This document shows positions 6,139-24,026 of a stretch of 64,000 bases of DNA, piece after piece. Each line of letters opens with the position of its first letter. Position 1 is the first letter of the stretch. Made by a program: the position numbers and the translations under genes. Origin of the DNA: Desmodesmus armatus (taxonomy: Eukaryota > Chlorophyta > Chlorophyceae > Sphaeropleales > Scenedesmaceae); contig VIIQ02000647.1 of NCBI GenBank assembly GCA_007449985.2, forward strand, positions 186,001 through 250,000, written 5' to 3'. Below the pieces are notes generated by a model. It saw only the letters and a program-made list of their open reading frames with translations. It ran no database searches and was not told where the DNA came from.

Positions 6139-9100
6139 CAGCAAGCTGCCCCGTACCCGTCATTCCAGCAGCACTTGCCACCTGAGCAGCGCACAGTATT
6201 TTTTGCTGGTGAGCTCGCAGGGGTCTGTGGCATCCAGCTGGGTACTGTTGCACCAGGGGCCAACCGCCCGCACCCAGTCACTGAGTGACCTGTCAGTGTG
6301 GGTGCTGCCGCAGACGGTCAGCCCTGTGCATCTGATCTCAAAACGTTTGCTGGCAGATGTACTTTCGTCAGCAACATTATTTTCCGACAGCTGTCGCACA
6401 AGCATAACACAACATAACATAACATAACACCACTCGTACCATATGTTCCTGCAGGAGTGCCTCCCATGGCGACAGAGCCAGAGTTGCAAGCCCTGTACGG
6501 ATGTTTTGGCCAGGTGGTAGACTGTAGCCTGAAAGGGGGAATGCCGGTGTGGTCGGGTGCCTCTTGTGGCAGTACGGGGGGTCGAAGTCGGTGGTTGGGG
6601 TGGTGGTGGTGCACCGCGGGTGCCAGGGGTCGAAGGGGGTACCTGCGGTGGCAGAGGGGAAAAGGGGGCACACAGACCGTCCCAGTGCCGCCCTGGTGGC
6701 AGGCCGGGCCCCTCTCACTGAACCCTGCTGGCACCGGGGTTCACAACTGCCCCTCCCTCTCACACACACGGCCTGTTTCCCACGCCGTTACAGGGTAGCC
6801 GGAAGCGAGACGAAGGTGTATAGGTATCACTTTTAGTAAGGGCTGAGGGATGGCACCTCTCAGCTGATCAGACTGAAGGGTCGCAGGGACCTGGGGTAAC
6901 TGTATCTGTCGACAGGGAACTCGAGTGCTCTGGGCACTTCACCTAGCAGTAGAAGAAGCCTGAAGAAACCAATTGCTGCAGCTTTTAGCTGCTCAAGACA
7001 GGGAAGCCGAATCGGTGTCTGGAAAGTCACAGAAGGATTGCCAAAGAGCTTGTTACAACGCTTAGCAGGCGAGGGGCTGGTTCACGGCTGTGGGTGTAAC
7101 TCAACAATGTCACCCAGCGCACACTCGCTATTTATACCCCTGGCCGAGGTCACTCTTCTGTTACTTTGCTGCTAACTGTAGCAGCAACAACAGCGTACCT
7201 CAACCAGTGCAACATGCACTGCAAAACCAATCAAACCACACGATGTGGTGTGACTGGGCAAAGCTGTACAGGATGCATAGACACTTGCACACCCGAAGCT
7301 GCGATGCGCTGGCACGAAGATGCATACGCAAGTGACTGTGCCGATCAAACATCACAACATAACACAGGTACATACAGGCGTCAGGTCTGGGCCAGGTCCA
7401 GCCAGTACACGTACTGAGCAGTACGAGACCGGCTGCTGTCAGACATACACACACGATGCGTGGTTGCTGTCAGCTCCTGCAGGAAGCTATCCAACAAGAA
7501 GCTGACTTGCTACAACATGCAAATGGGTGGGAGTACCACCTGAGCTGCGCTGTACTGCAGCCCCACTACACAAGAAACAGCCTGTCAGTGTCCAGGCTGT
7601 AAGCCCAAAGCAAACGAAAAGCTGTCAGACCTGTGAGTAGCTCCGTCAGCTTCTGCAGGAAGTTATCCCACAGAAGCTAAGCTGACACAAAACACATGCT
7701 AGCACCGTCTGTGCTGGACGGTCTTGCAATTTCAAGACACATATGACACCTGCTCAGTGTCCAGGCCGTGAGCCTAAATCAAAGGAGAAGGCTGTCAGAC
7801 ACACCTCCCCAGTCAGGCGACTGCTCCAGAATCGCAGTCAGCCAAGGACCATTCGAACACTGCTCAAGGATAGGCAGCAAGTGTTGCAACTGCCATGCCC
7901 AACAACACACATAGTAGGTAGCAGCACATGTTGCAGCTGTACCCTAAACCCAACTTGTTCAAAACACTGCTCAGCATAATAAACAACAGGTCCCATTCTC
8001 CATAAGATACTCAGGACTCACCCTGTAGGTACTCACTCCTTATCCATCCACACACTCGCCTTCACGCAACAGCTGTGGCTGCTAACGCTTCAACGAGGCC
8101 TGCCCCCAGGCCATATGCCAAAAGGGAGGGCAGTCCAGCCCAAGCATAGGCCTGAACAAGGGAGACATGGTAGCACGTCTGCTGCCGTTCACTCCCTACA
8201 CACAGCTGCACTCGCCCTAAGGCAACAGCTGTGGCCGTCCCTGCTGTAAGGAGGCCCGACCCCGGGGCTATAAGTTCGTGCCCGCTGCAGCACACTGTTC
8301 AAGGCTGATCAAACTGATGCAACAGCGCAATATGCAAAAAAGGTGCGGACTATTCAACAACTCATCAGCAAAGGTGTGGCATCACTGCCCCTTCTCTTTT
8401 CAAGGGTGGCCAGTCCAGTATTTTTTTTTGTTGTTGTTGTTTGTACAAGGTTGACAAGGTAAAACCCTGCACCAACAAGCACACTGCCCGCTGTAACGCT
8501 GCTGCATATGATACAAGTCTGAAGCCAGTCGGGCAGGTGGCACACCACAATTTTCCCGCCAAAACCCAAGAGTAACCGTCAGTGTCAGTCTTCTGGCAAA
8601 CCCCACCAGTAGCCAACAGTGCCAACAGTGAGTGGTCAGTCCTGCTATTAAGACAAACAACACTGGAAGCCTTTACTTCCCCCTCTTTTTTTGTTTGTTT
8701 TTTGTAAGTTTGAAAACCAAAGGGGGAGAAACAAGGTCGCCCCCTAGCTGTACTGCATATTGCAGTCGACAGCTTCCACACCATGCCTGAACCTCTCACC
8801 CAATATTGTCACGCAGTCACAAGCTGCGAAGCAGCACTTGCTCCACACTATTGCAGCCACAAGTGCAGGTCAGAACTGCAGGACAATCACCTGGTTAGGC
8901 AACTGTCTAACCTAACAAATTCCTCAGTCCTGCACCAACATGCACCAATATGCGCACCACCCAACGCCGCTTCCTAGCTGTACTGCATGTTGCAGTCGAC
9001 AGCTTCCACACCATGCCTGGACCTCTGCCCTCTGACCTGGTACTGTCACCAGTGACACGCACCATCCAACCAAGAAAGCTGCCTCCTGGCAGCTACACCG

Positions 9101-12100
9101 GCCTAGGCGTGGCCGGGTCCCTGTGCAGCCTTCTGCTGCATGGTTGCCCACTCTGCCTGCCCATGCAGGAAGGCCATGTCGTGTGCGGAGGCGGAGTACG
9201 ACTGGCTGCACTGCGTTGCGGAGACTGGGGCGTTATGCAAACAACAGTCAACTGAAAGAAAACTTGTGCGGGAAAGAACACAGCGCAGTGCTGTGGCAAT
9301 GCGCAACACCTGCGAAATGTGCGCTACTTGTTATAACAGCGGGTCAATATCAGCAGGTCAATGGCCCACGATCGTCCACTTCAATGCTGGTGATATATCT
9401 CATATCTCCAAAACCCAAACTCTCAACATGCTTAGGCGCGTAGGGTTGTTTCTTCACATGTTGCTGCTGTAGTGGGACAGCAGTCTTTAGATCACATACC
9501 ACTAGGGTCCTCTGTGGGTACCAGTATACGCAAACAAGTTCCAGAACTCGTTATTTCCAAGATCAAGCCCTTTCCAGTCAGTCCGATGACCCAAAGGGTG
9601 CTAGCCTGTTGATTGCACAAGCCCACTGCTTGTGCTGGGCATCCTCAAGGAGTGCCCTGGAGTTGCTGAGATACTTCACCAGTAGGTAGGGTCCCTCGAT
9701 AGCATTGACCTTGGCCAGCTTGTTTTTGGGAGGGCAGAACATCAGCACCAGACTGCCAGGTGGCATAGCATCTTCTGGTGCAGGCACGTGCAGGTGGCGT
9801 GCCTTGAAGTCCCTCTTTTGTTTGGCTTGTGAACGTAGTATGTTGTTCTCCAGTGTTTGGTGCAGGTCAGTCTTGTGAGCGTTGCGTTGCTTGATAAGTC
9901 GCCTGGTGCCTTGGTCCAGCATTTGATCCAGCCCATCATCTTCCTCTTCCTCGTCTGTTGCTGCAGGTGGGGATTGTGCCGATGTCCCAGCCGCTGCTGT
10001 GGCTGCTGTTGCTGGGGTGGTGCGGCGAGTGCGTGGCCTACTGGAAGGCCCAGCTTGGTCAGTAGTTGGGGATTGTGCCGATGTCCCAGCCGCTGCTGTG
10101 GCTGCTGTTGCTGGGATGGTGCGGCGAGTGCGTGGCCTACTGGAAGGCCCAGCTTGGTCAGTAGTTGGGGCTGGAGGGCCGCGGCGTTGTGCAGGTAGGA
10201 TAGGATTCCTGCCAGTGTTGACGTAGAAGGGAGAGAACCCAGTAGTAGAATGCACCGCACTTCGAAGTCCTAGCAGTACCAAAGGTAGTTTTTCATCCCA
10301 AGCGTGGGGGTTGTCTCCCACTGTCTTCTGCAGGCCATGGAGAATGGTCTTGACTGCTGCTTCTGCTTGTCCATTGGACTGCGGATTGTAGGCGGCTGTT
10401 TGTAGGTGCTCTACGCCAAGTTCCTTCATGAGGGTCTTGAAACCAAATTGAAATTCTTTGCCTCCATCACTGATGATGGTTTTTGGTGTGCCGTGGTTGG
10501 CGATGATTTGGTTCATAACAAAGCGGCACATAGTATCGGCATCCAGCTTAGGGACTGCTTGCGCCTCCACATACTTGCTCATGCCATCGATGCCAACACA
10601 CAGGAATCGGCAGCCGTTGCGGGTGGGTGGGTAGGGGCCCATTGAATCAAGACTGACCCTTTCCCACAACTGGCTGGGGGGCAGAGGCTTGAGCTCTGGT
10701 TGGAACTTGAACAGGGTCTTGTGGCGGAGGCAGTCCACACAGTTGCGTAGGCGTTGCTTGACTTGATTGTAGATGCCACGCCAGTAGTAACGGGAAAGCA
10801 GGATGCTGCACAGTTTGGTGGTGCCGAGGTGTCCCAGGTCCAGATGCATTTGGTCGATCAGGGTCTCTCTTGCTGCAGGGGAGGGTACTTCTCGGTCGGT
10901 TGTGTACTTGCCCGAGGGGCGGAAGTACAGCTTGTGGTTGTCGTTGCACCAGCGGTAGTTGGCGGCTCTCTTGTCAATACGCTTCATTTCCCTGCTAAGT
11001 AATACATCGTCGTCTGGCAGAAGATCCACGTTGTACTGCTCTGTTTGCAGGTACTGCATCGTGGCTTGATCCTCCCATACCTCCAAGATGGCGCCTGTGA
11101 CAGAGGCTGCTTCGTCTTGGTCTGATTCAGTGTCGGCTTCTTCAGGTGGGTCGGGGGTGTTCTGGGTTAGGCTTGGGGAATCATGAAAGCGGCTTGGGGC
11201 CTTGCCCTGGGGCTGGCTGGCTGCTGGTGACTCCTGGTGTTTGTCAGTAGCGCTTGAGGGCTGCAGGTCTGACATGCCACTTCCAGTGGGTAGGGGCAGG
11301 GTATCAGGCGCTCCTTGTAACACACACTCATCGCAGTACCAATTGCCCGATGGTACTCCCACCAGGCCCACGCAGTAGGTGTGACACCCCTTATCACATC
11401 GGTGGCATAGTAGCAGGTTGACCCAGTCGTGGGGTGACCCACAGACGCTGCAGGGTAGGTCGGAGGGTATTTTTGTGTCGCTGGTAACTGCTTGGGCTTC
11501 TGTAGTTGCCCAGTTCTGCATGTTTTCCACTGCCAGCTTGGCCGTTCTTCGCGGGGGCCGGTCATACATATTCATCTGCTCTGGGGAATCCCTGGGGTGG
11601 GAGCTCTTCTCTTGGTGTGGTAGGCAGCTGGCCAGTCTGAGGCTGGCTCCGGTCGGGTGTTGTGTCAGGCCCCATTGGTAGGACTGAGCCATGCTCCAAA
11701 GTCATGGTGTTGGGGTTGTGCAGGCTGACGCCACAGGGTATGGTAGGGCGTAGTCTGACCAGTCTAATCCAGCTGTCCAACATGTAGGCCTCATTGGTGA
11801 AGGCTTGGGTCCAGGGAAAGGTAGTGTCGCTTTTTAGTAGGGTCTGGTTGAACCTGACCGGGTCCTGTGCTTCCATCTCTGCTGCCTTGAAGGTAGCATA
11901 CTGCTCTGTGTCCACATACACAACTTCGGTGCCGTCTGTGTTCACCTGCTGTACTTGCAGGGCTGGTAGGGCTTTCTTGGGCGCCACCGCCAGCAGAACG
12001 TTGGCACCGGGCGCGCTGGAGAGCCATGGCCCCAAGGCTGCATACAAGTCCAAGGCGTGAAGATTGTTGATGCGGTGACTGGTGCTCACTGGGGAGCCAA

Positions 12101-15100
12101 AGCGGTGCTCGTATTGTGCTTGGAACAGTGGTGAGTAGGCAAAGGTGCCCGGGCCTCCTTGGAAGAGTATGGGGACCTCGCTGTCCTGATGGAACAGCAG
12201 GTGTGAAGGTCCACTCAGGAAGTCCAATGGTGTCAGGTCCAGCGGGGACGGGGGTGAGGGCTCCCTGGGTTGGTATTCTTGGGGTGGGGCATTGTGTAGT
12301 AACAGGCGGTTGCCTGAGCTGCTTGCATGGCTTGGGGGCACTCCTTCTGTGCATACCAGTAGCTGATCGGGGCACAGTCGCAATAAGTAGGGGTCGCAAG
12401 TAGTAAGTAGCTTGTCAGGTCCAAGTAGTCGCGCCAGATTGGGAAACTCAGCAATAGTGTAGGGAGCCTTGGTAGTTGACCACAGGCTGTAGTAGTTGTT
12501 GTGGCTGTTGGGTAGTTCAAAGGCCTCATGTAGTAGTTCCACAGCACGTTTGACGGCTGCAAACACCGTGTCCTCGTCTTGGTTGGCGTTGATTGTTACT
12601 GTCACTCCAGGGAACCGGTGGACTGCTGTATCATACTGGCGGTGGAGCTTCTTCAAGTAGTCCAAGGTTAGGGCGGCTTCCTCCGGGCGCTGGCGAGCTT
12701 GGGCTCTGGTAAGACAGGTCTCTGGGTCGGTTTGTAGGTAGATAAGGGTTGTTGGCAGGGCGTTGTCCAGGACTGGGTGCATATGATGCGCAGTCTGTTG
12801 AACCACCCTTTCATAGCTAGCAGGGAGGCCTTGCACAGGCAGGAACACTGCCAAGCTGCTCCAGGGACTCCGTTCCATGATGATGTAGGGAGCCGCTATG
12901 GGGTGTGGAACACGTAGGGCATATGCATTGAGCACTGCCTGCTGCAATACTGCTGCATGGGCAGGGTCTGTATCGCCAGACGTGTAGTGCTGGTCCAGAA
13001 GGTGTTGCCAGTCGGCTACAGGCTCTGGTAGTATATGCCAGTTGCTCCACCAGGGTAGTGCTTGTATCTCCTGTAGTTTTCTGAGCACTGTGCTCTTGCC
13101 GCTGCCAATGTTGCCTTCAATGGCGATACGCGCAGGGCCAGGGAGGCCTGCCATTCTGCTGGGTGAATCAAGGCTCAGTGGGAGGGTGGAGTCGTGCTCC
13201 ACAGGAGGGGCTTCCTCGTGGTCAAGTGGCGGGGTCTCAGAATGCCCTTGCTCTGTGGAGTCCAATGGATTGGCGTGGTCGTTGTTGCCCGCAGGCGTGG
13301 CTGGGTAGGTGTCGGTCTTGTCTTCAGAGGTGAGAAACTGCTCCAGGTTGCGGTCGTGGGTGTCGGTCTTGAACTCAGGGGGTTCTGGGGGCAACCACTC
13401 ACCAAAGGAGGGGGTTGGGCTGTTGGCCGGGTCCTCAAAGGCAGCGGTTGCTGTGTCGGGGTGGCATGGGGTGCTGGTGGAGTCGAGGGTCAGCACCTCA
13501 TCGAAGTGGTTGTAGTCAGTAGGGTCAGAATCGGGACAGTCATCAAGGGCTGGGGCCTTGGTGGCGCTGGTAGGTGTCTCAGGGCTTTCGTCGCTGTCAT
13601 GTCGCGGGTCTCGGGAGAGGGCATCTGCAGCCAGGTGGTGGATACCCTTACGATACTGGATCGTAAAGGGCATAAACTCCTGTAGCCTCAGGCTCCACCT
13701 GGCTAACTTGCCTTGCAGGTTGGGTGATGTCAGCAGCCAACGGAGGGCGTGGTGGTCAACCACTACAGTGAAGGGGTGCTCAGCAGCCCACAGGAAGTCC
13801 CTCCACTGCTCTGTGACGGCGCTGACAACGGCATAACATTCCAGGTGGGTGATTGCCCAGTTGGCTTGTGTAGAAGTAAGCTTCTTGCTGTGGTAGGCGA
13901 CGGCGTAGTGCTTGCCGTCCTCGTCGCACTGGGTCAGCACAGCGCCCACTGCCTTCTGGGAGGCATCGGTGTGGACGTGAAACGGCTTGGTGAAGTCGGG
14001 ACGTCGTAGGATAGGATAGTCCATCAGCTTGCTCTTGAGGGTGTCGAAGGCATCCTGTTGCTCAGGACCCCACTCAAACTTCTTTGTTTTGCCCATGATA
14101 CGGGTGAGGGGCTCTGCAATTTCTGCAAAGCCTCTGATGAAACGCCTATAGAATGAACATAGGCCAACAAAGCTGGCTACTGCCTTTTTGGGGTTGCTTT
14201 TTGATTTGTAAGGCTCTTGGCGCAGTGCAACTGCTTCTATCAGCCGGGGGTCACAGCCTAGGCCCTTCTCTGAAATGCAGAAGCCTAAGAAGGTGCAGTG
14301 GCTGGTGGCAAAGCGGCACTTGGTGCTGGACAGCCGCAGGTTGGCAGCACGTAGCGACTTAAACACAGCAGTCAGGTGAGCAACATGCTCATCAAGAGTG
14401 CGGCTGTAGATCACCACATCATCTAGGTACACAAACGCATAGTTGCCGACATGCTCTTGTAACACCTGATTCATCAGGCGCATGAAGAAAGATGGGCAAC
14501 CTGTCAAGCCAAAGGGAGCCTTCAGGAACTGGTACAAGCGGTGCCCGAAGGGGCACGCAAACGCTGTCTTCTCAATGCTGTTGTGCGGATCCTTACCATC
14601 CTTGCCTGCCATGGGCACTTGCAGGTACCCCGAGTGTAAATCAATTACACTGAAATACCTGGCAGGCCCTATGTTGTACAAGATATCATTCATCAGAGGT
14701 AAGGGGTAGGCGTCCTTCTTGGTGACGCTGTTGAGCTTTCGATAATCCACCACTGCACGGGTGGCACCTCCCTTCTTGGGTACTAGGTGCAAGGGGGCTG
14801 ACCAAGGGGAGTTGCTGGGTTCTATGATGCCCAGTTCCAGCCATTGCTCTACATGCTTCTTCAGCTCTTCTTGTTTTTTATATGGCATCCTGTAGTAGTT
14901 TTGCTTTAGGGGTTTTGCATCTCCGGTGTCAATGGAGAGGCTCCCATAGTTGCAGGTGCCCAACTGAGTTGGGTGGAAGCAGAAAACGTCTGCATTCTGC
15001 TCCAACACACTCACGATCATGTCAAACTCTGCTGTGTCCAGGTTGGCGGCGTCTACCATACCAGACAGAGAGAGGTGCCTGTTGTCACTGAGGAGGTCAT

Positions 15101-18100
15101 CATCAGGAAATGGGCAGAGTTCGGCTTCTGGTGGGTTGTAGAGGGCTCTGGGGAGGGCGGCTGGCTCGGGGAATTCTGGGTGTTCCTGGGGTAGGGGCTC
15201 ATACATTCCCAGCCAATCTAGTGGGTGCAGGGTGTCGGGGTCTTGGTCTGGCTCGGATGTATCGCTGTCGGAGTCGCTTGCCAGGGAGGGCATGTCGCTG
15301 TCAGACAAGGGCTCTTCAAAGTAGCAGAAGGTGTCCACGGGGGAAGCTTCCATGTCGGTGGTCTCATACACAGCTGGGCTTGGAGCTGGAGTCGTAGGGG
15401 TTGTATTGGAGGAGGAGGCTGTGCTTTCAGCCCTCTTTTCTAGCGGGGTGAGGTCACTCGCTGCAATGGTCTCAGAGCAGAAGACCTCAGGTGCAGCGGG
15501 TGTTGCTTCAATCATGACGGTGTCTTCTGTGGGCTGGAGAAGGGTTGCCTGTTGGCGGCGGCGCACAGGGGGCCGCTGCGGGGGGTTGTTAATACGATGG
15601 CCGGAAGGGTTTGCTGGGTTGCGGGGCCTGGGGGGCCGGGGGTGCTGGTCTCCAGAAGTCACCACTGTGTAGCGGCCAGGGCGGCCAGAAGTGAAGACGT
15701 GTGTTACGCCTGAGTCGCTGCGTTGTAGAGCTCCTCTTGTAGGCAGCTGGCGCCGATTGGGGCCTGGATTGCTTTGGGATAGCTCTGCAGGGGCGCTGCT
15801 GCTGTTGGTCGGGTGTGTCGGGGGAGTTCCTTGTCGCTCTTCAAACACAAACATCTCTGATGGGTCTACTGTTGTTGCAGGTGCCGATGCTGGAGTGGCC
15901 AGTGGGGTGGTCAAATCTTTGGTTGGCGGCGGGGCCAAGAGTGAGGGCCACCCCTGAGGTACTGCACTCAGGTCCAAGCTGGCTATGCGTTCGGCCTCAT
16001 CACGGTCATAATGTGGGTAAGCACACTCAATCAGCCATGCCACGCGCTGAAGTAGCCTGTGGCGAGTGTTGGGCTGGTTTGGCTCGCTGATCTCATAGTG
16101 TTCAGGCTCAGCCAGCGCTCTGTCAAGGCTGAAAAGACTCTTGGCACTGGAAGGGACTGTAGCTCCCAAGGAGGCGGTGATCCAGGCATCAAGGGCGGAA
16201 GGCATACCACTAGGCAAAGCCACTAGGTCTGTGCTAGCCAGCTTCAGGGCTGTGACAGGCTCCATGTCATCCCCAAACGCTGCTAGCATCAGCCCGGCCA
16301 GGTAGCTGAGCATGCGGGGGTTATCAGTCAGCAGGCTGTGGGAATCAATGCTATCCCCTGCCTCTGGCTCGTCATACATGTAAATAAGCTCTGGTTCTGA
16401 CTCGCTGCTGTCTGTTGCTGTGTGGTTGTCATCCACCAGGAGTAGGGGAGCCCTAGACAAGCCCATCTCTTCCTCAGCCCAAGATCCCAGCGCTGAATCA
16501 TATCCCGCAGGTAAGTTGATAACATCAAGCTCTGCTAGGAACTGGGCTGTGTCACTCCTCAGGCCTGGAAAGGCTGAGGTGGAGAGAAGGGCCAGATGGC
16601 TGACTAGCTTTTTGTAACCCCACTCTGAGCTGTGAGGGGGTGTTTTGGGTGTAGTTGGTAGCTGCTGATCCAGGCACAGCATGCTGGCGGCTGTGGTGTC
16701 TGTTAAAGTTGTGTCCATCTCGTCAGAATCGGAGTACAGCCAGTCATTATGCAAAGCCTCAAACACAGAAGGGTAGCCTTGGGGCAGACCCGCTAAGTCT
16801 TTACCAGCTATTTCCATAGCTTTCTCAGGGGTGATTCCCATGTGGTTTGCTAGCATCAGGGAGGCAAATTGCTTTTGCAGGGCTAGGCATGAAGCCAGGC
16901 CCTCGGTGCTACTATTTTCATGGCCAGGAGCATTAGGGGGCAGCTGTAGGTTGGAGAACAATGAAGGCTCACCCCTCAGCTGTCCCTCCCTCAGGCGGCG
17001 CAGTTGGGTGGGTACCCATTCTTTTGGTGATTTTTGTGCCATATTGCAGATGGCTGGGTATATGGTGGTGCCTGAGTCGGTGTCGGCTGACCCTGAAATC
17101 TCCTCATGAGTAGCTCCCTCCCCATCACTGGCATTGTATCCCTCCCTCTCAATGTCAAACCCCAGGGAGTCAGGGAAGCCCCAAGCGGTTGCGTCAAGGG
17201 AGGCCAGCAGCTGTGCTGTGGGGCCATCGCAGTCGGGGTAAGCATCTTGCAGGACAGAAAGCACATACCTCAGGTTCTTGGGGTGAACCAGCTCGCTGTC
17301 TTCTGTTTCCATATCCTCATCGCTGAAATCATCACTGTCGCTGCTGAGCATGTAGCTGTCAAAATCACTGTTATAGCCGCCACCACTCTCGATAACCTCT
17401 CCTGCTGGTGTGGTGTTGTTGCTGTCTGCTGCTTGCCTGCTGCTGCCGTAGGTGGCTGCATTGCTAGCAGCTGTAAAGGAGCGCATACTATCATCGTACT
17501 CGGTTGCAATGGTTGGGTCAGCAGCTGTGGTGCTGGTGCCAGCCAATTCCAAGTAGAAGCTTTCAGTCACATACTCAGCTTCGTCTGTGGATGCAGTGTC
17601 GAAGCTGTGGTCCTCTGGCAGGTGAGGCTGGCTCTGGCAGTAGATACTGCCAGGCTCAGAGGGGTGGTTAGTGCTAATGGGTAGCTCTTGGCAGGTGGTG
17701 GGGTCTATGCGCAGGATCAAGCTACCCTTTCCATAGTCGATCACCGCGTGGGCACGGGTCAGCACATCGTTGCCGATCAAGAGGTCATAATTCAAGGCGG
17801 AGGTGACTGTGGGGTTGATAAGAGTCTCAAAGTCCCCCAAAGCCAGAGCTAGGTTGGGTACCTTGCCCTTTCCAGCAGTGATGCGGCCATCCGCATTCAG
17901 GTAGCTGGACTGAGCAGGCACTATCAGGCTGTCAAGCTCCAGACGTCGCAGGCAGTCAAGGGTCACAGCAGTGGTACTAGCCCCAGTGTCCACTACTCCT
18001 TCCAGAGGCCTACCATTCAATTCTGCTACTACTCTGCAGGTCGAGACACGAGGCGTGGCTATGGGGCGTGGGCGGCTGGCTTGAAGCAGGCTGCGGACCC

Positions 18101-21100
18101 TCTCAGAAGGTGGTGTTGTCAGGCCCCTGGTGGGCATGCTGGACATGTTCAGCACTGTATTGCGGCTGTTGCTGCCAAGCCGAAGACTGGGCTGATATTT
18201 GCGCTGGATGTCCTTCATAACCGACTCCACCTGGGTGGCCATTTCCTGGCCAAGGCTGACTAGGCTGGGTTGCCCAGCCAAGTGCCCTGCGAGGCAGGTA
18301 AGGACTGCTTGGGGAGGCACAGTGCCTTCTGTCTGCCCATCCATCTTAATGCTGCGACATATCTCTGATGCCATCTTTTTTGCTTTTTGGTTGGCCAGGT
18401 CAGCAGCTCCTTGTGACCTGTGGGTTGAATCAGTAGGAGCGGGGGGGCAGGAGGGGGCACAGGGCCACGAGGGCCGGGAACCGCAGGACCAGGTGCCCCA
18501 TAGGGCCTAGCCTGCAATGGCTGTCGCTGTCTTGGCATTCGGGGAAAAGCATCAGTGCCTGCTTCAGCAGCTGCCGCTGCTGCAGGCCTACTTGTCCCTG
18601 CTGGGCTGCTTGAGGCAGGCCGGGCTGCAGCATAAGTTGGCCGTGATGGCCCATGCATGTTGGGTGCCCGGGGATCAATGGCTGTACGTTTGGCTGGCAT
18701 GCGCTTCAGGGCTGGTGCATTGCTGTCGTCAGCAGAGCGCTTGACCATGAGTGCAGCCAACAACTCAGGATCAATGTCTAACTCATCCTCTGGCAGACTC
18801 TCGCTGCTCATGAAATTGATATGAGGTGTGTCCCTCTGAGGCTGCTTTTCTAAAGCATAACGCAGGGTCCTGATTTCCCTGTCTTTGTCCTTGTTCTGCT
18901 GCAGTTGCTGATGCATGTTCAGCTCCAACTGCTGCATACGCCTGGTCAGCTCGTCCACAGCAGCAGGTGAGGAAGGCACGGGAGCAGGCTTGGGGGGCAC
19001 AGGGAAATTGTTAGGGCGAGCATTGCGGTTGCTTACATCTCTGAAGGGGGGCCTGGAGGCTGGCCTGTAGTAAGGCCCTTGCTGAGGCCTCCTAGTATCA
19101 AACTCAGGGCGTCGGGGCAGTGGGTTACCAAAGGCTGGTGGTTTGCTTGCAGCTGCCATGCCGTCCATGTTACGGCCAAAGTTGCTGCTTGCAAAGCCAT
19201 CCTCCCTTCCCATGTCTGCTGCACCCAATGCCCCTAACAGGTAATTTGCGTATTCAACTACTGCGTCTATGCTGCGCAGTTGCTTCCTGACAACCTCAGT
19301 CCTGATGCTGGGCTGGAGACGCTGTATGAAGGTGTAAACAAGAGCAGCATCTTCTGTGCGACCAGAACGTTCTGCATCCAGTCGAAATCTGTCAGCGAAG
19401 GCCCTGGGGGCCTCTCTTGGACTCTGGTAGCAGCGTTCCAGTCGTGCTATGGCTGTCTCTTGTGTTTCACCGAAACGGTGAACTAGTAGCTGTTGAAATT
19501 CAGCCCAGCTGCAGAAGCTGCGGGACTGGCCCCAACGTTGTGCATCGCCTCTTAGCTTGAGCTTTGCTACACGCAAGCAGTGTATCTCAGCCCAATTGTA
19601 CAGGCCAGCTGTATCCTGAAGGTGATTGAGCCAGAGGTTGGGATCACCCTGCCCATCATAGGTGTCAATACTATTGAGGGCACCAGGTGAAGGCAGCATG
19701 GCCCCTGGGGGTGCGAACTGGAACTCCCCTTCTGTCTCAGACATGTGTATGTAATGTTTTTGGGCTGTGGGAACAGCTTTTGTATGGGGCTGGACACACT
19801 TTGGTGTGCAAGCTCTGGAAGCAGTAGAGGGCAGTAGTAAGCTGGACCGAAGTCAGCTTTTGAGCAGCAGGTGTTTCGAAACCCCCTTGCTATTCGTTTA
19901 CTTGTTGTTTGGAGTAGGTTACGCAGTACCAGAACTCTTGTTGAGAACGGTAGTGACGTAAACTTGCGCAGTGGAAGTCGTGATGGGCTCAGGTCACAGG
20001 TAGTCGATCCTCAACGTAGTCGTTGAAGAGAGTGTCTCAGCTGCCAAGTACGGGGGGTCGTAGTCGGTGGTTGGGGTGGTGGTAGTGCACCGCGGGTGCC
20101 AGGGGTCGAAGGGGGTACCTGCGGTGGCAGAGGGGAAAAGGGGGCACACAGACCGTCCCAGTGCCGCCCTGGTGGCAGGCCGGGCCCCTCTCACTGAACC
20201 CTGCTGGCACCGGGGTTCACAACTGCCCTCCCTCTCACACACACGGCCTGTTTCCCACGCCGTTACAGGGTAGCCGGAAGCGAGACGAGGGTGTATAGGT
20301 ATCACTTTTAGTAAGGGCTGAGGGATGGCACCTCTCAGCTGATCAGACTGAAGGGTCGCAGGGACCTGGGGTAACTGTATCTGTCGACAGGGAACTCGAG
20401 TGCTCTGGGCACTTCACCTAGCAGTAGAAGAAGCCTGAAGAAACCAATTGCTGCAGCTTTTAGCTGCTCAAGACAGGGAAGCCGAATCGGTGTCTGGAAA
20501 GTCACAGAAGGATTGCCAAAGAGCTTGTTACAACGCTTAGCAGGCGAGGGGCTGGTTCACGGCTGTGGGTGTAACTCAACAATGTCACCCAGCGCACACT
20601 CGCTATTTATATCCCTGGCCGAGGTCACTCTTCTGTTACTTTGCTGCTAACTGTAGCAGCAACAACAGCGTACCTCAACCAGTGCAACATGCACTGCAAA
20701 ACCAATCAAACCACACGATGTGGTGTGACTGGGCAAAGCTGTACAGGATGCATAGACACTTGCACACCCGAAGCTGCGATGCGCTGGCACGAAGATGCAT
20801 ACGCAAGTGACTGTGCCGATCAAACATCACAACATAACACAGGTACATACAGGCGTCAGGTCTGGGCCAGGTCCAGCCAGTACACGTACTGAGCAGTACG
20901 AGACCGGCTGCTGTCAGACATACACACACGATGCGTGGTTGCTGTCAGCTCCTGCAGGAAGCTATCCAACAAGAAGCTGACTTGCTACAACATGCAAATG
21001 GGTGGGAGTACCACCTGAGCTGCGCTGTACTGCAGCCCCACTACACAAGAAACAGCCTGTCAGTGTCCAGGCTGTAAGCCCAAAGCAAACGAAAAGCTGT

Positions 21101-24026
21101 CAGACCTGTGAGTAGCTCCGTCAGCTTCTGCAGGAAGTTATCCCACAGAAGCTAAGCTGACACAAAACACATGCTAGCACCGTCTGTGCTGGACGGTCTT
21201 GCAATTTCAAGACACATATGACACCTGCTCAGTGTCCAGGCCGTGAGCCTAAATCAAAGGAGAAGGCTGTCAGACACACCTCCCCAGTCAGGCGACTGCT
21301 CCAGAATCGCAGTCAGCCAAGGACCATTCGAACACTGCTCAAGGATAGGCAGCAAGTGTTGCAACTGCCATGCCCAACAACACACATAGTAGGTAGCAGC
21401 ACATGTTGCAGCTGTACCCTAAACCCAACTTGTTCAAAACACTGCTCAGCATAATAAACAACAGGTCCCATTCTCCATAAGATACTCAGGACTCACCCTG
21501 TAGGTACTCACTCCTTATCCATCCACACACTCGCCTTCACGCAACACTCTTTGCACAACAGGTGGCAGGGCAGCAGGCAGTGGCAGAGAGGGGAAGGGGT
21601 GTAGCTAGCTTCACTGCCTTAGGCTGTGTGCTGCGCTGGCCCTAAGGGTCTCACACCTGGCACTAACCCCTTTGCTGTTGGGTGTTGAGCTGTAGATGAG
21701 GTGTGTACAGCTGTGGGGAATTTGAATCGACAGAACTGTCGAGAGTTTGAACACTCTTTGACTCAGAGAAGCGGAGTCTCGACAGAACTCTCGAGAGAGG
21801 TGTTGATAGCTTGCTGCTCTGCTGTTTGCTCAGACAGGCAGGATAATAGCTGAAATGCAAGGCAGGAGGCTGGAAGCAGAAAAGCAAGCCTCAGTCAGGG
21901 CAGTAGCTCAAGTGGCCAGTTGGACTCAGAAACCGGGGACCGTTTGTTACACGGGGGAAAGCAGGCCTTGGCCTGTGAGGAGGACTTAGCCTCAAAACGA
22001 GTCACCCTTTCTGTAAAGGGGAAGAAGCTCTCTGGGCTGCTTTGGCCTGGCTGTCTTGAGAAAATGGCTGGGGATGCCCGCCTTATACAGTCCTGGCAGG
22101 GCTGAACCCCAGGTGCATAAACCACAAAGTAACAGCACTAGAGGCTTCCAAGCCTCCAATGCTAGAAGCTTCTGGGTGCCAGAAGCTTCCAAACCTCCAA
22201 TGCTGGAAGCTTCTGAGTGCCAGATGCTTCCAAACCTCTCATGCTGAAGCTTCTGCAGCTTCCATCCGTTCAATATGCATCAGAGGGGCAAACTGACCCC
22301 TACATGCTACAACTTGCTCAACAATCATCCTGCATCACCGCGCACATTGCCAAACTACGGCCCGTGCCAAAAGCTTCTCGATGCTGCTGACGCCTTGCGT
22401 ATGTCAGACATGCTGCGCTCCGCTTCTCGAAGGTCAGACATTGCGCAGGAGCTCACGAGGCTTTCTCGAGGCGATAGGTACAGCCGCACGTTGTTCCAAA
22501 CATCTTCAAAGCCAACCTGCACTTGCGTGAAGCCATCAGAGTGCAGACTGCCGTGCCAGGGTCAGTCAAGGTCAACGAACGGTCAAACATGCAGTAAATG
22601 CGCATTGACTGCACATACGCGGCTGGATTACTCGTTGTTTGCACGGTCACTACTTATCACCGGCGCCACTCGTTGTTGCGCGACAGACTTGAACCTCTTC
22701 AAGCCATTCAACAACAGCAGGAACAGCAAGGTACGTGAATGTTGGAGGCAGATCAGGTCCAGCGACCACCTGCTGGCCAGATAACACCAACTGCGCAGCT
22801 CGCACTCCCCGTCTTCTGCACTGCTGTTACCCCTTCCCTCGAACTCCTGCAGCAGCTTTGGGCCGGGACTATATCTCAGTAGTTTGGTTGACCGAAGTCA
22901 GGCAGGAAGAAGCAGTAGAGGTACCCCTACTGACAGCGTGATAGTAATGGCTTCCTCTTGAAATATCTTTGACGTGGGTGCCTCTACACCTTCCGACCCT
23001 GACTCATCGGCCGCCATGGGATGGACCATCCTTAATTTGTGTAGGGTTTGGGGTCGCTCCCACCTTGCTACCCTACAAGCACTCACCCACCTGCTGCCCA
23101 CCCCACCCACCACTGCCTGCAACCCAGGTTATGTGTTGCACGCTTTTGCCCTGCCACCCTACAAAGCACTCACCCACCCACTGCCTGAACCCCAAGTTTG
23201 TGCTGCAAGCCTTTGCCCTGCTACCCTACAAAGCACTCACCCACCCCCTGCTCACCCCACCCACCACTGCCTACAGGGCTGCGGCTTGGTCACATTCTCT
23301 ACTCGACTTGAAGTACTCACCCACCCACTGCCTGCAACCCACGTTTGTGTTGCAAGCTTTTGCCCTGCCACCCTGCAAAGCACTGACCCACTCACTGCTC
23401 ACCCCACCCACCACTGCCCACAGGGCTGCGGCTTGGTCACATTCTCTTCTCGACTTGAAGCACTCACCCACCCACTGCCTGCTACCCAAGTTTGTGTTGC
23501 AAGCTTTTGCCCTGCCACCCTACAAAGCACTCAACCACCCCCTGCTCACCCCACCCACCACTGCCCACAGGGCTGTGGCTTGGTCACATTCTCTACCTGA
23601 CTTGAAGCACTCACCCACCCACTGCCTGCACCCCAAGTTTGTGTTGCACGCTTTTGCCCTGCCACCCTACAAAGCACTCACCCACTCACTGCCCACCCCC
23701 ACCCACCACTGCCACAGGGCTGCGGCCTAGTCACATTCTCCACCCGACTTGAAGCAGCCAGCGCCATCTGCAGCCTACACGGTACCTTCAAGTTCCCAGG
23801 CGCCAGGACTGCGATGGTAGCAGAGTGGATGGACCCAACCAAGCAACACCGCAAAGCCCGCACACACCTGCTGATGGCGCTGCAGCCGGGGCAGCAGCTG
23901 CTGTATGGAGGCTTGCACAGCACACCCGTCATGCCTGCCGCTACCGCCCTACAGTCTGGGATGCTACTAGCAGAGTCGGCAGTACACCCACAGGTTTGGC
24001 CGCAGCTGCTGCAGCGCCTTGTTTGA
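6139..24026 (+). CDS. RNA-recognition-motif protein, gene interrupted in an intron by a 15-kb retrotransposon
   Basis: Four exons join in phase: 6139-6208, 6454-6523, 22687-22730 and 23718-24026, with canonical GT-AG borders. The joined product has an RRM: RNP2-like RTVFFAGV (spanning exons 1 and 2), then TEPELQALYGCFGQVVD, the loop LNLFKPFNNSRNSK, the RNP1-like GCGLVTFSTRLEAASAI and LHGTFKFPGAR, followed by MVAEWMDPTKQH, a motif I associate with green-algal RRM proteins. The tail is short, ending in a TGA at 24024-24026. Further upstream exons are likely. The third intron (6524-22686) contains the whole antisense Ty3/gypsy element, making it about 16 kb. The last intron holds three partial copies of the final exon's 5' end. 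Whether transcripts are spliced correctly across the element cannot be told from sequence. The protein presumably binds RNA; the target is unknown. Confidence 0.75.
6571..8071 (-). repeat. 3' LTR of the Ty3/gypsy element
   Basis: About 1,500 bases repeated at 20047-21546. Differences seen by eye are two substitutions near the left end (6585-6610), one C indel near 6751, A/G near 6811 and C/T at 7137. Outer end in element orientation reads CCCCCCGTACT and then host-like GCCACAAGAG; the expected TG...CA terminus is unclear at this end. Purine-rich priming tract next to position 8072 is not obvious. Confidence 0.92.
7129..7136 (-). promoter_or_regulatory. TATA box in 3' LTR
   Basis: On the minus strand the LTR reads GGGGTATAAATAGCG, a consensus TATA box in the element's sense direction. 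TGTAA, the green-algal poly(A) signal, occurs downstream on the same strand near 7050 and 6788. Confidence 0.55.
8072..9577 (-). other. 3' non-coding region of the Ty3/gypsy element
   Basis: About 1.5 kb between the integrase stop and the 3' LTR with no convincing frame; no envelope-like gene. It contains two degenerate direct repeats: CTAGCTGTACTGCAT... at about 8743-8797 and again at 8972-9026 (~228 bases apart), and CAACAGCTGTGGC at 8067-8079 and 8222-8234. The second pair overlaps the LTR edge. Confidence 0.6.
9578..11692 (-). CDS. Retrotransposon PHD finger-integrase protein
   Basis: A 704-residue frame that inserts the cDNA into the host genome. Residues 81-123 form a C4HC3 PHD finger: C81/C84, C96/C99, H104/C107, C120/C123, ending in GNWYCDEC. 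An HHCC zinc-binding domain follows (H283, H288, C318, C321), then the rve catalytic core with D349 (VSLDSMG), D409 (TIISDGG) and E444 (NGQAEAAV); all three acidic residues are present. After the core comes an exact-length 33-residue tandem duplication (about 510-575) rich in Pro, Thr and Arg, an acidic run EEEEDD, and a C-terminal domain with PGSLVLMFCPPKNKLAKV; no chromodomain is evident. The frame overlaps the end of the pol frame by 131 bases in a +1 relation, so it needs a frameshift, internal start (ATG at 11692) or is separated by an indel. The PHD finger may steer integration to particular histone H3 tail states, by analogy with chromodomains of chromoviruses. Confidence 0.9.
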   Translation of the reverse strand: MAQSYQWGLTQHPTGASLRLASCLPHQEKSSHPRDSPEQMNMYDRPPRRTAKLAVENMQNWATTEAQAVTSDTKIPSDLPCSVCGSPHDWVNLLLCHRCDKGCHTYCVGLVGVPSGNWYCDECVLQGAPDTLPLPTGSGMSDLQPSSATDKHQESPAASQPQGKAPSRFHDSPSLTQNTPDPPEEADTESDQDEAASVTGAILEVWEDQATMQYLQTEQYNVDLLPDDDVLLSREMKRIDKRAANYRWCNDNHKLYFRPSGKYTTDREVPSPAARETLIDQMHLDLGHLGTTKLCSILLSRYYWRGIYNQVKQRLRNCVDCLRHKTLFKFQPELKPLPPSQLWERVSLDSMGPYPPTRNGCRFLCVGIDGMSKYVEAQAVPKLDADTMCRFVMNQIIANHGTPKTIISDGGKEFQFGFKTLMKELGVEHLQTAAYNPQSNGQAEAAVKTILHGLQKTVGDNPHAWDEKLPLVLLGLRSAVHSTTGFSPFYVNTGRNPILPAQRRGPPAPTTDQAGPSSRPRTRRTIPATAATAAAGTSAQSPTTDQAGPSSRPRTRRTTPATAATAAAGTSAQSPPAATDEEEEDDGLDQMLDQGTRRLIKQRNAHKTDLHQTLENNILRSQAKQKRDFKARHLHVPAPEDAMPPGSLVLMFCPPKNKLAKVNAIEGPYLLVKYLSNSRALLEDAQHKQWACAINRLAPFGSSD
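9972..10171 (-). repeat. 99-bp tandem duplication in integrase
   Basis: Two nearly identical 99-base units (for example GATTGTGCCG at 9972 and 10071), each encoding 33 residues beginning TTDQAGPSSRPRTRRT. The duplication keeps frame. It lies between the catalytic core and the acidic C-terminal segment. Confidence 0.9.
11562..18374 (-). CDS. pol: Retrotransposon pol: protease, five-repeat region, RT, RNase H, deoxynucleoside kinase
   Basis: A single 2,270-residue frame. Aspartic protease at about 110-225 (VVDTGASTTAV, active D129; LLIGNDVL). Residues 240-1100 are acidic and low-complexity but contain five copies of a ~40-residue motif (372-404, 504-541, 594-632, 692-731, 778-813). Reverse transcriptase at about 1155-1400 (SPWSAPLHLVPKK, YLDD at 1316-1319). 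RNase H at about 1462-1590 (D1470, E1512, D1540, D1584). After a linker, 1743-1955 is a deoxyribonucleoside kinase: P-loop GNIGSGKS 1754-1761, EPVADW 1784-1789, ERS 1834-1836, IYLQTDPE and the lid ARQRPEEAALTLDYLKKLH. Residues 1960-2230 are unassigned. Gag overlaps this frame by 115 bases in a -1 relation. Domain content is clear; how the long polyprotein is cut is unknown. The family's usual pol is roughly half this length. Confidence 0.93.
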   Translation of the reverse strand: MASEICRSIKMDGQTEGTVPPQAVLTCLAGHLAGQPSLVSLGQEMATQVESVMKDIQRKYQPSLRLGSNSRNTVLNMSSMPTRGLTTPPSERVRSLLQASRPRPIATPRVSTCRVVAELNGRPLEGVVDTGASTTAVTLDCLRRLELDSLIVPAQSSYLNADGRITAGKGKVPNLALALGDFETLINPTVTSALNYDLLIGNDVLTRAHAVIDYGKGSLILRIDPTTCQELPISTNHPSEPGSIYCQSQPHLPEDHSFDTASTDEAEYVTESFYLELAGTSTTAADPTIATEYDDSMRSFTAASNAATYGSSRQAADSNNTTPAGEVIESGGGYNSDFDSYMLSSDSDDFSDEDMETEDSELVHPKNLRYVLSVLQDAYPDCDGPTAQLLASLDATAWGFPDSLGFDIEREGYNASDGEGATHEEISGSADTDSGTTIYPAICNMAQKSPKEWVPTQLRRLREGQLRGEPSLFSNLQLPPNAPGHENSSTEGLASCLALQKQFASLMLANHMGITPEKAMEIAGKDLAGLPQGYPSVFEALHNDWLYSDSDEMDTTLTDTTAASMLCLDQQLPTTPKTPPHSSEWGYKKLVSHLALLSTSAFPGLRSDTAQFLAELDVINLPAGYDSALGSWAEEEMGLSRAPLLLVDDNHTATDSSESEPELIYMYDEPEAGDSIDSHSLLTDNPRMLSYLAGLMLAAFGDDMEPVTALKLASTDLVALPSGMPSALDAWITASLGATVPSSAKSLFSLDRALAEPEHYEISEPNQPNTRHRLLQRVAWLIECAYPHYDRDEAERIASLDLSAVPQGWPSLLAPPPTKDLTTPLATPASAPATTVDPSEMFVFEERQGTPPTHPTNSSSAPAELSQSNPGPNRRQLPTRGALQRSDSGVTHVFTSGRPGRYTVVTSGDQHPRPPRPRNPANPSGHRINNPPQRPPVRRRQQATLLQPTEDTVMIEATPAAPEVFCSETIAASDLTPLEKRAESTASSSNTTPTTPAPSPAVYETTDMEASPVDTFCYFEEPLSDSDMPSLASDSDSDTSEPDQDPDTLHPLDWLGMYEPLPQEHPEFPEPAALPRALYNPPEAELCPFPDDDLLSDNRHLSLSGMVDAANLDTAEFDMIVSVLEQNADVFCFHPTQLGTCNYGSLSIDTGDAKPLKQNYYRMPYKKQEELKKHVEQWLELGIIEPSNSPWSAPLHLVPKKGGATRAVVDYRKLNSVTKKDAYPLPLMNDILYNIGPARYFSVIDLHSGYLQVPMAGKDGKDPHNSIEKTAFACPFGHRLYQFLKAPFGLTGCPSFFMRLMNQVLQEHVGNYAFVYLDDVVIYSRTLDEHVAHLTAVFKSLRAANLRLSSTKCRFATSHCTFLGFCISEKGLGCDPRLIEAVALRQEPYKSKSNPKKAVASFVGLCSFYRRFIRGFAEIAEPLTRIMGKTKKFEWGPEQQDAFDTLKSKLMDYPILRRPDFTKPFHVHTDASQKAVGAVLTQCDEDGKHYAVAYHSKKLTSTQANWAITHLECYAVVSAVTEQWRDFLWAAEHPFTVVVDHHALRWLLTSPNLQGKLARWSLRLQEFMPFTIQYRKGIHHLAADALSRDPRHDSDESPETPTSATKAPALDDCPDSDPTDYNHFDEVLTLDSTSTPCHPDTATAAFEDPANSPTPSFGEWLPPEPPEFKTDTHDRNLEQFLTSEDKTDTYPATPAGNNDHANPLDSTEQGHSETPPLDHEEAPPVEHDSTLPLSLDSPSRMAGLPGPARIAIEGNIGSGKSTVLRKLQEIQALPWWSNWHILPEPVADWQHLLDQHYTSGDTDPAHAAVLQQAVLNAYALRVPHPIAAPYIIMERSPWSSLAVFLPVQGLPASYERVVQQTAHHMHPVLDNALPTTLIYLQTDPETCLTRAQARQRPEEAALTLDYLKKLHRQYDTAVHRFPGVTVTINANQDEDTVFAAVKRAVELLHEAFELPNSHNNYYSLWSTTKAPYTIAEFPNLARLLGPDKLLTTCDPYLLRLCPDQLLVCTEGVPPSHASSSGNRLLLHNAPPQEYQPREPSPPSPLDLTPLDFLSGPSHLLFHQDSEVPILFQGGPGTFAYSPLFQAQYEHRFGSPVSTSHRINNLHALDLYAALGPWLSSAPGANVLLAVAPKKALPALQVQQVNTDGTEVVYVDTEQYATFKAAEMEAQDPVRFNQTLLKSDTTFPWTQAFTNEAYMLDSWIRLVRLRPTIPCGVSLHNPNTMTLEHGSVLPMGPDTTPDRSQPQTGQLPTTPREELPPQGFPRADEYV
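12510..13148 (-). other. Deoxyribonucleoside kinase domain inside pol
   Basis: Residues 1743-1955 of pol. Enzymes of this family transfer phosphate from ATP to deoxynucleosides, the first step of dNTP salvage. All hallmark motifs are present and in order: Walker A GNIGSGKS, EPVADW (substrate site, Glu base), MERSPWSS (the ERS motif), LIYLQTDPE and the Arg-rich lid QARQRPEEAAL followed by YLKKLHRQYD. This matches the dCK/dGK/Drosophila dNK type rather than tetrameric thymidine kinase. The reading frame runs from RNase H into the domain without a stop, so it is part of the element's polyprotein, not a nested host gene. Substrate choice cannot be read from sequence by eye. Confidence 0.92.
15936..17261 (-). 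other. Five degenerate ~40-residue repeats between protease and RT
   Basis: Each unit resembles LxxLxxxAxP, about 10 residues, AxxxAxxDLxxLPxGxPSxLxxW. Examples: LASLDATAWGFPDSL, IAGKDLAGLPQGYPSVFEAL, LAELDVINLPAGYDSALGSW, LASTDLVALPSGMPSALDAW, IASLDLSAVPQGWPSLL. Units are spaced 85-130 residues apart and separated by acidic Ser/Asp-rich linkers. I recognise no known family. Confidence 0.75.
18260..18382 (-). promoter_or_regulatory. gag-pol overlap with candidate -1 frameshift site
   Basis: The gag frame ends at 18260 while pol is open from at least 18374, in the -1 frame relative to gag. On the minus strand a CAAAAAAG run (18375-18382) lies exactly where a -1 slip would lead into AAG ATG GCA of pol. 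The heptamer phase is not the canonical X XXY YYZ. The ATG at 18374 has a good start context (AAGATGG), so internal initiation is an alternative. Confidence 0.5.
18260..19744 (-). CDS. gag: Retrotransposon Gag
   Basis: A 494-residue capsid precursor that packages the element RNA. Residues about 25-165 match the retrotransposon Gag fold (DPNLWLNHLQDTAGLYNWAE, LKLRGDAQRWGQ, FADRFRLDAERSGRTED). A predicted coiled coil lies at about 262-300 (VDELTRRMQQLELNMHQQLQ). The rest is Pro/Arg/Ala-rich. No CCHC zinc knuckle is present, so RNA binding probably depends on the Arg/Pro-rich tail. The ATG at 19744 lies about 300 bases after the primer binding site, a normal leader length. The frame ends inside the start of pol. 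Confidence 0.88.
   Translation of the reverse strand: MSETEGEFQFAPPGAMLPSPGALNSIDTYDGQGDPNLWLNHLQDTAGLYNWAEIHCLRVAKLKLRGDAQRWGQSRSFCSWAEFQQLLVHRFGETQETAIARLERCYQSPREAPRAFADRFRLDAERSGRTEDAALVYTFIQRLQPSIRTEVVRKQLRSIDAVVEYANYLLGALGAADMGREDGFASSNFGRNMDGMAAASKPPAFGNPLPRRPEFDTRRPQQGPYYRPASRPPFRDVSNRNARPNNFPVPPKPAPVPSSPAAVDELTRRMQQLELNMHQQLQQNKDKDREIRTLRYALEKQPQRDTPHINFMSSESLPEDELDIDPELLAALMVKRSADDSNAPALKRMPAKRTAIDPRAPNMHGPSRPTYAAARPASSSPAGTSRPAAAAAAEAGTDAFPRMPRQRQPLQARPYGAPGPAVPGPRGPVPPPAPPLLLIQPTGHKELLTWPTKKQKRWHQRYVAALRWMGRQKALCLPKQSLPASQGTWLGNPA
20032..20046 (-). promoter_or_regulatory. Primer binding site of the Ty3/gypsy element
   Basis: Directly inside the 5' LTR the minus strand reads TGGCAGCTGAGACAC. 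The leading TGG pairs with a tRNA CCA end, and the primer would be a tRNA ending CTCAGCTGCCA. I cannot name the tRNA from memory. Confidence 0.65.
20047..21546 (-). repeat. 5' LTR of the Ty3/gypsy element
   Basis: Direct repeat of 6571-8071 with about 99.7% identity. In element orientation it starts TGTTGCGTGAAGG and carries the TATA-like GATATAAATAGCG (20604-20611), presumably the promoter for genomic RNA. CTCTT follows it at 21547. Confidence 0.92.
21547..22686. other. Intron remainder of the RRM gene right of the element
   Basis: About 1.1 kb between the 5' LTR and the 44-base RRM exon. It includes repeated TCTCGACAGAACT / CGACAGAACTGTCGAGAG inverted strings near 21728-21795 and the 41-base tandem repeat at 22144. 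An open frame at 22275-22784 overlaps the real exon and is in the same frame as it, but has no recognisable domain before the exon. Confidence 0.5.
22144..22260. repeat. 41-bp tandem repeat, about three units
   Basis: Unit begins GCTTCCAA(A/G)CCTC and contains GAAGCTTC palindromes. Starts at 22144, 22185 and 22226; the last unit is degenerate. Confidence 0.85.
23277..23717 (+). repeat. 147-bp tandem repeat duplicating the 3' splice site and exon start of the RRM gene
   Basis: Three upstream copies start at 23277, 23424 and 23571; the genuine final exon starts at 23718, so spacing is exactly 147 bases. Each copy has a pyrimidine-rich CCCA tract, a CAG acceptor and about 37 bases encoding GCGLVTFSTRLE, then returns to intron sequence (CACTCACCC). 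Less complete copies extend upstream to about 23040. These are potential decoy acceptors. Confidence 0.85.

Follow-up and report, generated by a model that had tools for sequence, protein, structure and literature searches.

A conserved deoxynucleoside kinase domain between RNase H and integrase in a clade of Ty3/gypsy retrotransposons

Introduction

Accessory dUTPases occur in several retroelements with long terminal repeats (LTRs), including the bdelloid elements Juno, Vesta, and TelKA, PosPlaTy3 of Postia, the planarian element Burro, and retroviruses, and their slot varies, lying between protease (PR) and reverse transcriptase (RT), between RT and integrase (IN; retroviruses included), or at the ends (PMC5408684; PMC6431247; PMC2864245). 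The word "kinase" does not occur in the available text of these three papers, and the accessible literature on retrotransposons and LTR elements with a deoxynucleoside, nucleoside, or thymidylate kinase, a scope outside which subscription papers and Repbase lie, describes no such element. Here, we describe an LTR retrotransposon of the green alga Desmodesmus armatus whose pol frame contains a deoxynucleoside kinase (dNK) domain. The RuBisCO large subunit of this genome has its best match in a group of solved chains that includes 1gk8 of Chlamydomonas, in agreement with a green algal host. The element retains both LTRs and occupies the minus strand at 6561–21550 of the window, the whole 64,000-nucleotide stretch analyzed (assembly GCA_007449985.2, contig VIIQ02000647.1, positions 186,001–250,000), with three frames for gag, pol, and PHD-integrase. 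We propose, with a probability of roughly 0.6, that a Ty3/gypsy clade carries a conserved dNK between RNase H (RH) and integrase, likely phosphorylating deoxynucleosides to raise the supply of deoxynucleoside triphosphates (dNTPs) for reverse transcription.

Like the dUTPase elements and retroviruses, this LTR element has an accessory enzyme of nucleotide metabolism inside gag-pol. However, a dUTPase removes dUTP, whereas the element dNK would make deoxynucleoside monophosphates (dNMPs), and the variable dUTPase slots contrast with a dNK that has the same place, after RNase H, in all informative members examined. The folds of dUTPases and dNKs are unrelated. With cellular dNKs (dCK, dGK, TK2, and Drosophila dNK; PF01712), the domain shares profile, fold, P-loop, ERS motif, and lid, but it sits in a retrotransposon polyprotein and forms its own clade on a long branch. 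Viral dNKs, as described for nudiviruses, pox-, irido-, and giant viruses, chloroviruses, Yellowstone Lake algal viruses (PMC4602308, available text), and Vibrio phage ICP3/VP4, likewise give a virus its own salvage kinase, but they are genes of DNA viruses and not of an LTR element. With Ty3/gypsy elements (Metaviridae), the element shares gag, the PR-RT-RH-IN order, an H2C2 integrase, and LTRs, but between RH and IN it adds the dNK, a domain X, and a PHD finger, and it also has a 924-amino-acid PR-RT spacer (14970–17741, pol residues 256–1179) without a Pfam match.

The kinase domain in Pol

The initial annotation, made from the letters of the window, had read the pol frame as open past RNase H into a dNK, and this is borne out: 11562–18506 is uninterrupted from protease through dNK, and the motifs that it named are present. 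The profile search that it proposed as a check returned Pfam dNK (PF01712) at residues 1794–1980 of the whole frame (1.7e-26, 93.7 bits) and, with residues 1787–1999 alone, at 2.1e-28 (99.9 bits), against a cut-off of 27. Its residues 1743–1955 are the same segment (12510–13148) counted from another start, 1787–1999 being the numbering in the stop-to-stop frame. The slot that it gave, between RNase H and integrase, also holds, but the integrase of the window copy lies in a separate frame (9578–11701) overlapping pol, with domain X and the PHD finger in between.

All 20 PDB sequences matched by the element dNK are named dCK, dGK, or dNK, and the predicted structure has the dNK fold, with dCK, dGK, dNK, or dAK as the best fold matches listed. 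The features that mark dNKs, namely the P-loop, the catalytic Glu, (E/D)RS, and an Arg-rich lid, are all found, the lid having the pattern RxxxRxR. E1828 and the residues of P-loop, ERS, and lid are conserved in all 24 sequences compared or in all but one, and pairwise dNK identity, calculated for 21 of these, falls to 37%. The domain is preceded by a 171-amino-acid linker rich in P, D, T, and S, which would suit a flexible tether or protease release alike.

Copies and relatives

A dNK query of the D. armatus genome (115.8 Mb, 831 contigs) gave 23 matches on 18 contigs, of which 12 belong to the window's family, three hold diverged copies (C403, 56% identity; C548, 55%; C141, 54–62%), and three hold decayed derivatives. 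The copy number is a lower bound, with many copies lying at contig ends. An RT-RNase H query gave at least 92 matches (91 of 203 candidates scored). The dNK is present at 15 of the 15 RT-RNase H loci with at least 49% identity, and two genome-wide dNK searches gave no match at the other Ty3 loci, which have at most 43% RT-RNase H identity. Open frames differ in length among copies (C616, 2314 amino acids; C72, 2760; C100, 2936), as do the frame relations of pol to gag and to integrase, differences that may be real or reflect sequencing errors.

Among 5.8 billion proteins, all 15 matches to the dNK region of pol are RT-RNase H-dNK proteins, in a search that admits only long proteins and excludes stand-alone kinases. 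PF01712 was found in 19 of 120 listed RT relatives (the best 120 of 1254 found), all 19 with an RT identity of at least 46%; among those listed, just two more, P0163 and P0173, reach that identity, and both end before a dNK would be visible. The dNK follows RNase H in 19 of the 21 relatives examined, with 15 reaching the PHD finger and 13 the integrase core, and the order RH-dNK-X-PHD-H2C2-rve is invariant in those reaching integrase. One relative bears the automatic name "thymidylate kinase/transposase InsO family protein", which suggests that the fusion has gone unnoticed in databases. A separate 363-amino-acid database protein, P0135, is named as a fusion of dNK with RNase HI, and its listing shows no RT domain.

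Single origin and selection

An RT/RNase H tree was built from 131 rows, all of them listed database matches or own-genome families. In it, the 22 dNK elements group with two truncated ones in a single clade, which has a support of 100 by the Shimodaira–Hasegawa-like approximate likelihood ratio test (SH-aLRT). Its sister, P0178, is without a dNK, and eight other Ty3 sequences of the D. armatus genome fall outside the clade. Identity matrices of RT and dNK for 21 elements have a correlation of 0.878 (0 of 5000 permutations); as the permutations ignore relatedness, the correlation is evidence of co-inheritance and not of interaction. Comparison of own-genome families shows saturation at synonymous sites of the dNK (pS 0.81–0.84), with non-synonymous differences (0.29–0.37) near those of RT and RH (0.18–0.31). 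These comparisons establish, at the level of sequence, purifying selection on the dNK and one origin with the RT lineage. The Pol dNK is complete, conserved, and selected.

The decayed derivatives on C85 (L018), C714 (L097), and C715 (L098) have a protease followed by a decayed dNK, with no RT or RNase H in between. The P-loop is lost in all three, and because this decay pattern is common to them, they probably spread as non-autonomous elements. A kinase whose job is to support reverse transcription of the element that encodes it would be expected to decay in derivatives without RT.

Origin of the domain

In each of two dNK trees, all element dNKs group together (SH-aLRT 99), and a long branch leads to them. 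The first tree has 135 rows, its database rows restricted to 180–300 amino acids; the second has 81, including 35 hand-picked from the 110 database rows of the first, 17 bacterial rows (17 of 27 loci found), and four from IMG/VR. P0019, from an 881-bp contig, joins the element clade in the first tree and was omitted from the second. Host, animal, Bacteroidota, Photobacterium, and Dependentiae dNKs are all outside the clade, and the rows nearest to it are database proteins, with weak support. A tree against host and viral dNKs, as the initial annotation had suggested, thus sets the element dNKs in a clade of their own, with the host gene and the IMG/VR rows elsewhere.

Candidate donors were considered and rejected. 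The intron-bearing host dNK gene (C561:49781-50995; three exons matched by search, four read by eye) is 28% identical along a single segment of some 100 residues, and neither dNK tree groups it with the elements; the deep branches of these trees are weak and compatible with an ancient link to the host dNK. The coding sequence upstream in this gene resembles, by eye, an organelle-targeting peptide. For a bacterial donor, the nearest named match is Candidatus Dependentiae (35%), which groups with other sequences in the second tree. For a viral donor, IMG/VR scans found no locus with the element dNK or with P0024, one with P0021, and three with alignment A1, and the loci found do not group with the elements in the second tree. 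Phage dNKs are 31–32% identical to the element dNK (20 listed of 36 found). Carriage of dNKs is known from DNA viruses of algae (PMC4602308, available text), and the dNK trees are without algal-virus dNKs by name.

Architecture of the element

The coordinates of the element are collected in Table 1. Paired LTRs with a target-site duplication are present, and the order is the PR-RT-RH-IN of Ty3/gypsy, in contrast to the IN-RT of Ty1/copia, both in the window and in the 13 relatives extending to the integrase core. The two LTRs, of 1.5 kb each, are 99.67% identical (four mismatches, one gap). No dUTPase match was found in pol, gag, or frame 3 at E 0.1, or in the PR-RT spacer and the region after the dNK at E 1.

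Table 1. Features of the dNK retrotransposon, in window positions.
Feature	Position	Strand	Remarks
Target-site duplication AGAG, 3' side	6561..6564		4 bp; matches 21547–21550
3' LTR (TG...CA)	6565..8071	-	6571–8071 is the part pairing with the 5' LTR
Frame 3	9578..11701	-	707 amino acids; PHD finger, integrase H2C2 and rve, C-terminal module
Integrase core	10382..10630	-	PF00665, 7.3e-8
Integrase H2C2 zinc-binding domain	10715..10879	-	PF17921, 1.7e-13
PHD finger	11324..11452	-	PF00628, 1.5e-5
pol frame	11562..18506	-	2314 amino acids, stop-to-stop open frame; PR-RT-RNase H-dNK-X
Domain X	11721..12227	-	pol residues 2094–2262, between dNK and PHD finger; conserved in relatives
dNK domain	12510..13148	-	pol residues 1787–1999
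dNK lid	12678..12707	-	R1934 to E1943
dNK ERS motif	12867..12875	-	residues 1878–1880
dNK P-loop GNIGSGKS	13092..13115	-	residues 1798–1805
RNase H	13674..13997	-	PF17917, 3.4e-33; pol residues 1504–1611
Reverse transcriptase	14280..14783	-	PF00078 (RVT_1), 2.6e-27; pol residues 1242–1409
Aspartic protease	17754..18026	-	PF13975, 1.2e-10; PR residues 161–251
gag frame	18260..19852	-	Retrotrans_gag PF03732, 2.4e-4, 21.7 bits, slightly under the curated cut-off of 24.1
Candidate primer-binding site	20032..20046	-	TGGCAGCTGAGACAC, begins TGG; adjoins 5' LTR; no tRNA matched
5' LTR	20047..21546	-	pairs with 6571–8071
Target-site duplication AGAG, 5' side	21547..21550		matches 6561–6564

Domain X is present in all 16 relatives cut for it, at 31–55% identity. 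Its AlphaFold model has a pLDDT of 90.4, and no significant match was found in PDB, Pfam, NCBIfam, or PHROG; the modeled domain may be a new fold. The copy on C147 (L008) matches the window through most of the dNK and diverges from pol residue 1995 (domain X 66%); it has the look of a recombinant joined where the dNK ends. The PHD finger makes a possible chromatin-targeting module within the polyprotein.

The last six nucleotides of the 3' LTR, GCCACA (6565–6570), are missing from the 5' LTR, for which we have no simple explanation. The 3' LTR ends in CGTACTGCCACA in six of six read (window 6565–6570 and other copies, L079–L090), and the 5' LTR ends in CGTACT followed by TGGCAGC in five of five (window 20041–20046 and other copies, L079–L090); a solo-like LTR in C143 ends in CGTACTAGCCACA. 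By eye, the PR-RT spacer holds about five diverged copies of a repeat of about 50 amino acids, and the integrase frame has a tandem 99-bp duplication at 9965–10162. Elsewhere in the window, overlapping plus-strand frames at 55062–59726 form a Ty1/copia element, with copia-type gag and Pol_BBD by Pfam, RVT_2 slightly under the cut-off, and integrase by eye.

Discussion

According to the available text of a review (PMC3549941), dNTPs come from two sources, one of them salvage by deoxynucleoside kinases, and their levels are low in cells that do not divide. A salvage role fits the conserved catalytic residues of the element dNK and the purifying selection on it. In the mechanism that we propose, the dNK would be active as a kinase, either freed by the element protease or working fused to RT-RNase H. 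It would yield dNMPs near the reverse transcriptase, host kinases would convert these to dNTPs, and the extra supply would help when an RNA of unusual length (15 kb) is copied in the cytosol. The dNK would then play the part ascribed to accessory dUTPases by making precursors instead of removing dUTP. The broader view, that this clade incorporated nucleotide salvage into reverse transcription as one of its steps, coupling RT to its own dNTP-precursor factory that was kept vertically since the clade arose and lost only in RT-less passengers, has in our estimation slightly better than even odds.

Several observations weigh against a salvage kinase. The copies on C100 and C139 have a four-residue in-frame deletion beside Q1855 of the dNK, and some spread copies may therefore be less active. 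The element dNK has a Ser, within ERSPWSS, at the position that we take to be D133 of dCK and A110 of Drosophila dNK, and substrate choice is thus not readable from the sequence. P0163, within the dNK RT clade, has no dNK up to its end 148 amino acids past RNase H, but is uninformative because its relative P0157 has the dNK only 214 amino acids after RNase H. Finally, salvage is not absent from the host, the genome of which has its own dNK gene and TK1-like exons. Thus, the gain for the element may lie in a supply that is local or cytosolic, in timing outside S phase, or in countering a defence that drains dNTPs; host-cell dNTP shortage as the reason for the dNK has no direct support and is neither supported nor refuted.

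It is unlikely that the dNK is catalytically idle and retained because the polyprotein uses it in another way, for instance as a spacer, as a dimeriser, or to bind nucleic acid. Domesticated enzymes that function without catalysis do exist, and the deletion beside Q1855 is tolerated in two copies, but a mere spacer would not need the P-loop, E1828, ERS, and lid that persist down to 37% identity. We give equally little credence to an active kinase that chiefly counters a host defence draining dNTPs (a SAMHD1-like dNTPase or nuclease) and not low dNTPs as such. Depletion of dNTPs by SAMHD1 is a known retroviral block (PMC3549941, available text), and restriction of the dNK to one RT clade is what a lineage-specific counter-measure might produce, but no dNK match accompanies the remaining Ty3 families scored in this genome.

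Less probable still is a thymidylate kinase acting on nucleoside monophosphates and not on nucleosides. The automatic names of several relatives say so, and the domain matches Pfam Thymidylate_kin (2.8e-9), PHROG 761, called thymidylate kinase (9.2e-21), and NCBIfam dTMP_kinase (2.3e-10). However, the last match is at half the equivalog cut-off (40.5 against 83.25 bits), Pfam dNK is 19 orders stronger, and the matched PDB sequences, the listed fold matches, and the ERS and RxxxRxR lid are those of dNKs. A one-off host-gene capture or an assembly chimera, which the initial annotation had named as an outcome that would overturn its reading, can be set aside: many copies do lie close to the end of a contig, the place at which near-identical repeats interrupt assembly, but the slot is common to 12 same-family contigs, three diverged own-genome copies, and 19 database relatives, and neither dNK tree places the host gene close by.

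A salvage kinase serving reverse transcription, as we favor, would bear on a wider question. The supply of dNTPs limits retroviral reverse transcription, and the enzymatic answer known to us inside gag-pol of LTR elements is dUTPase; a salvage kinase kept by a whole retroelement clade would be a second one. It offers a small, well-understood enzyme domain with which to test whether gene capture by LTR elements is driven by dNTP supply.
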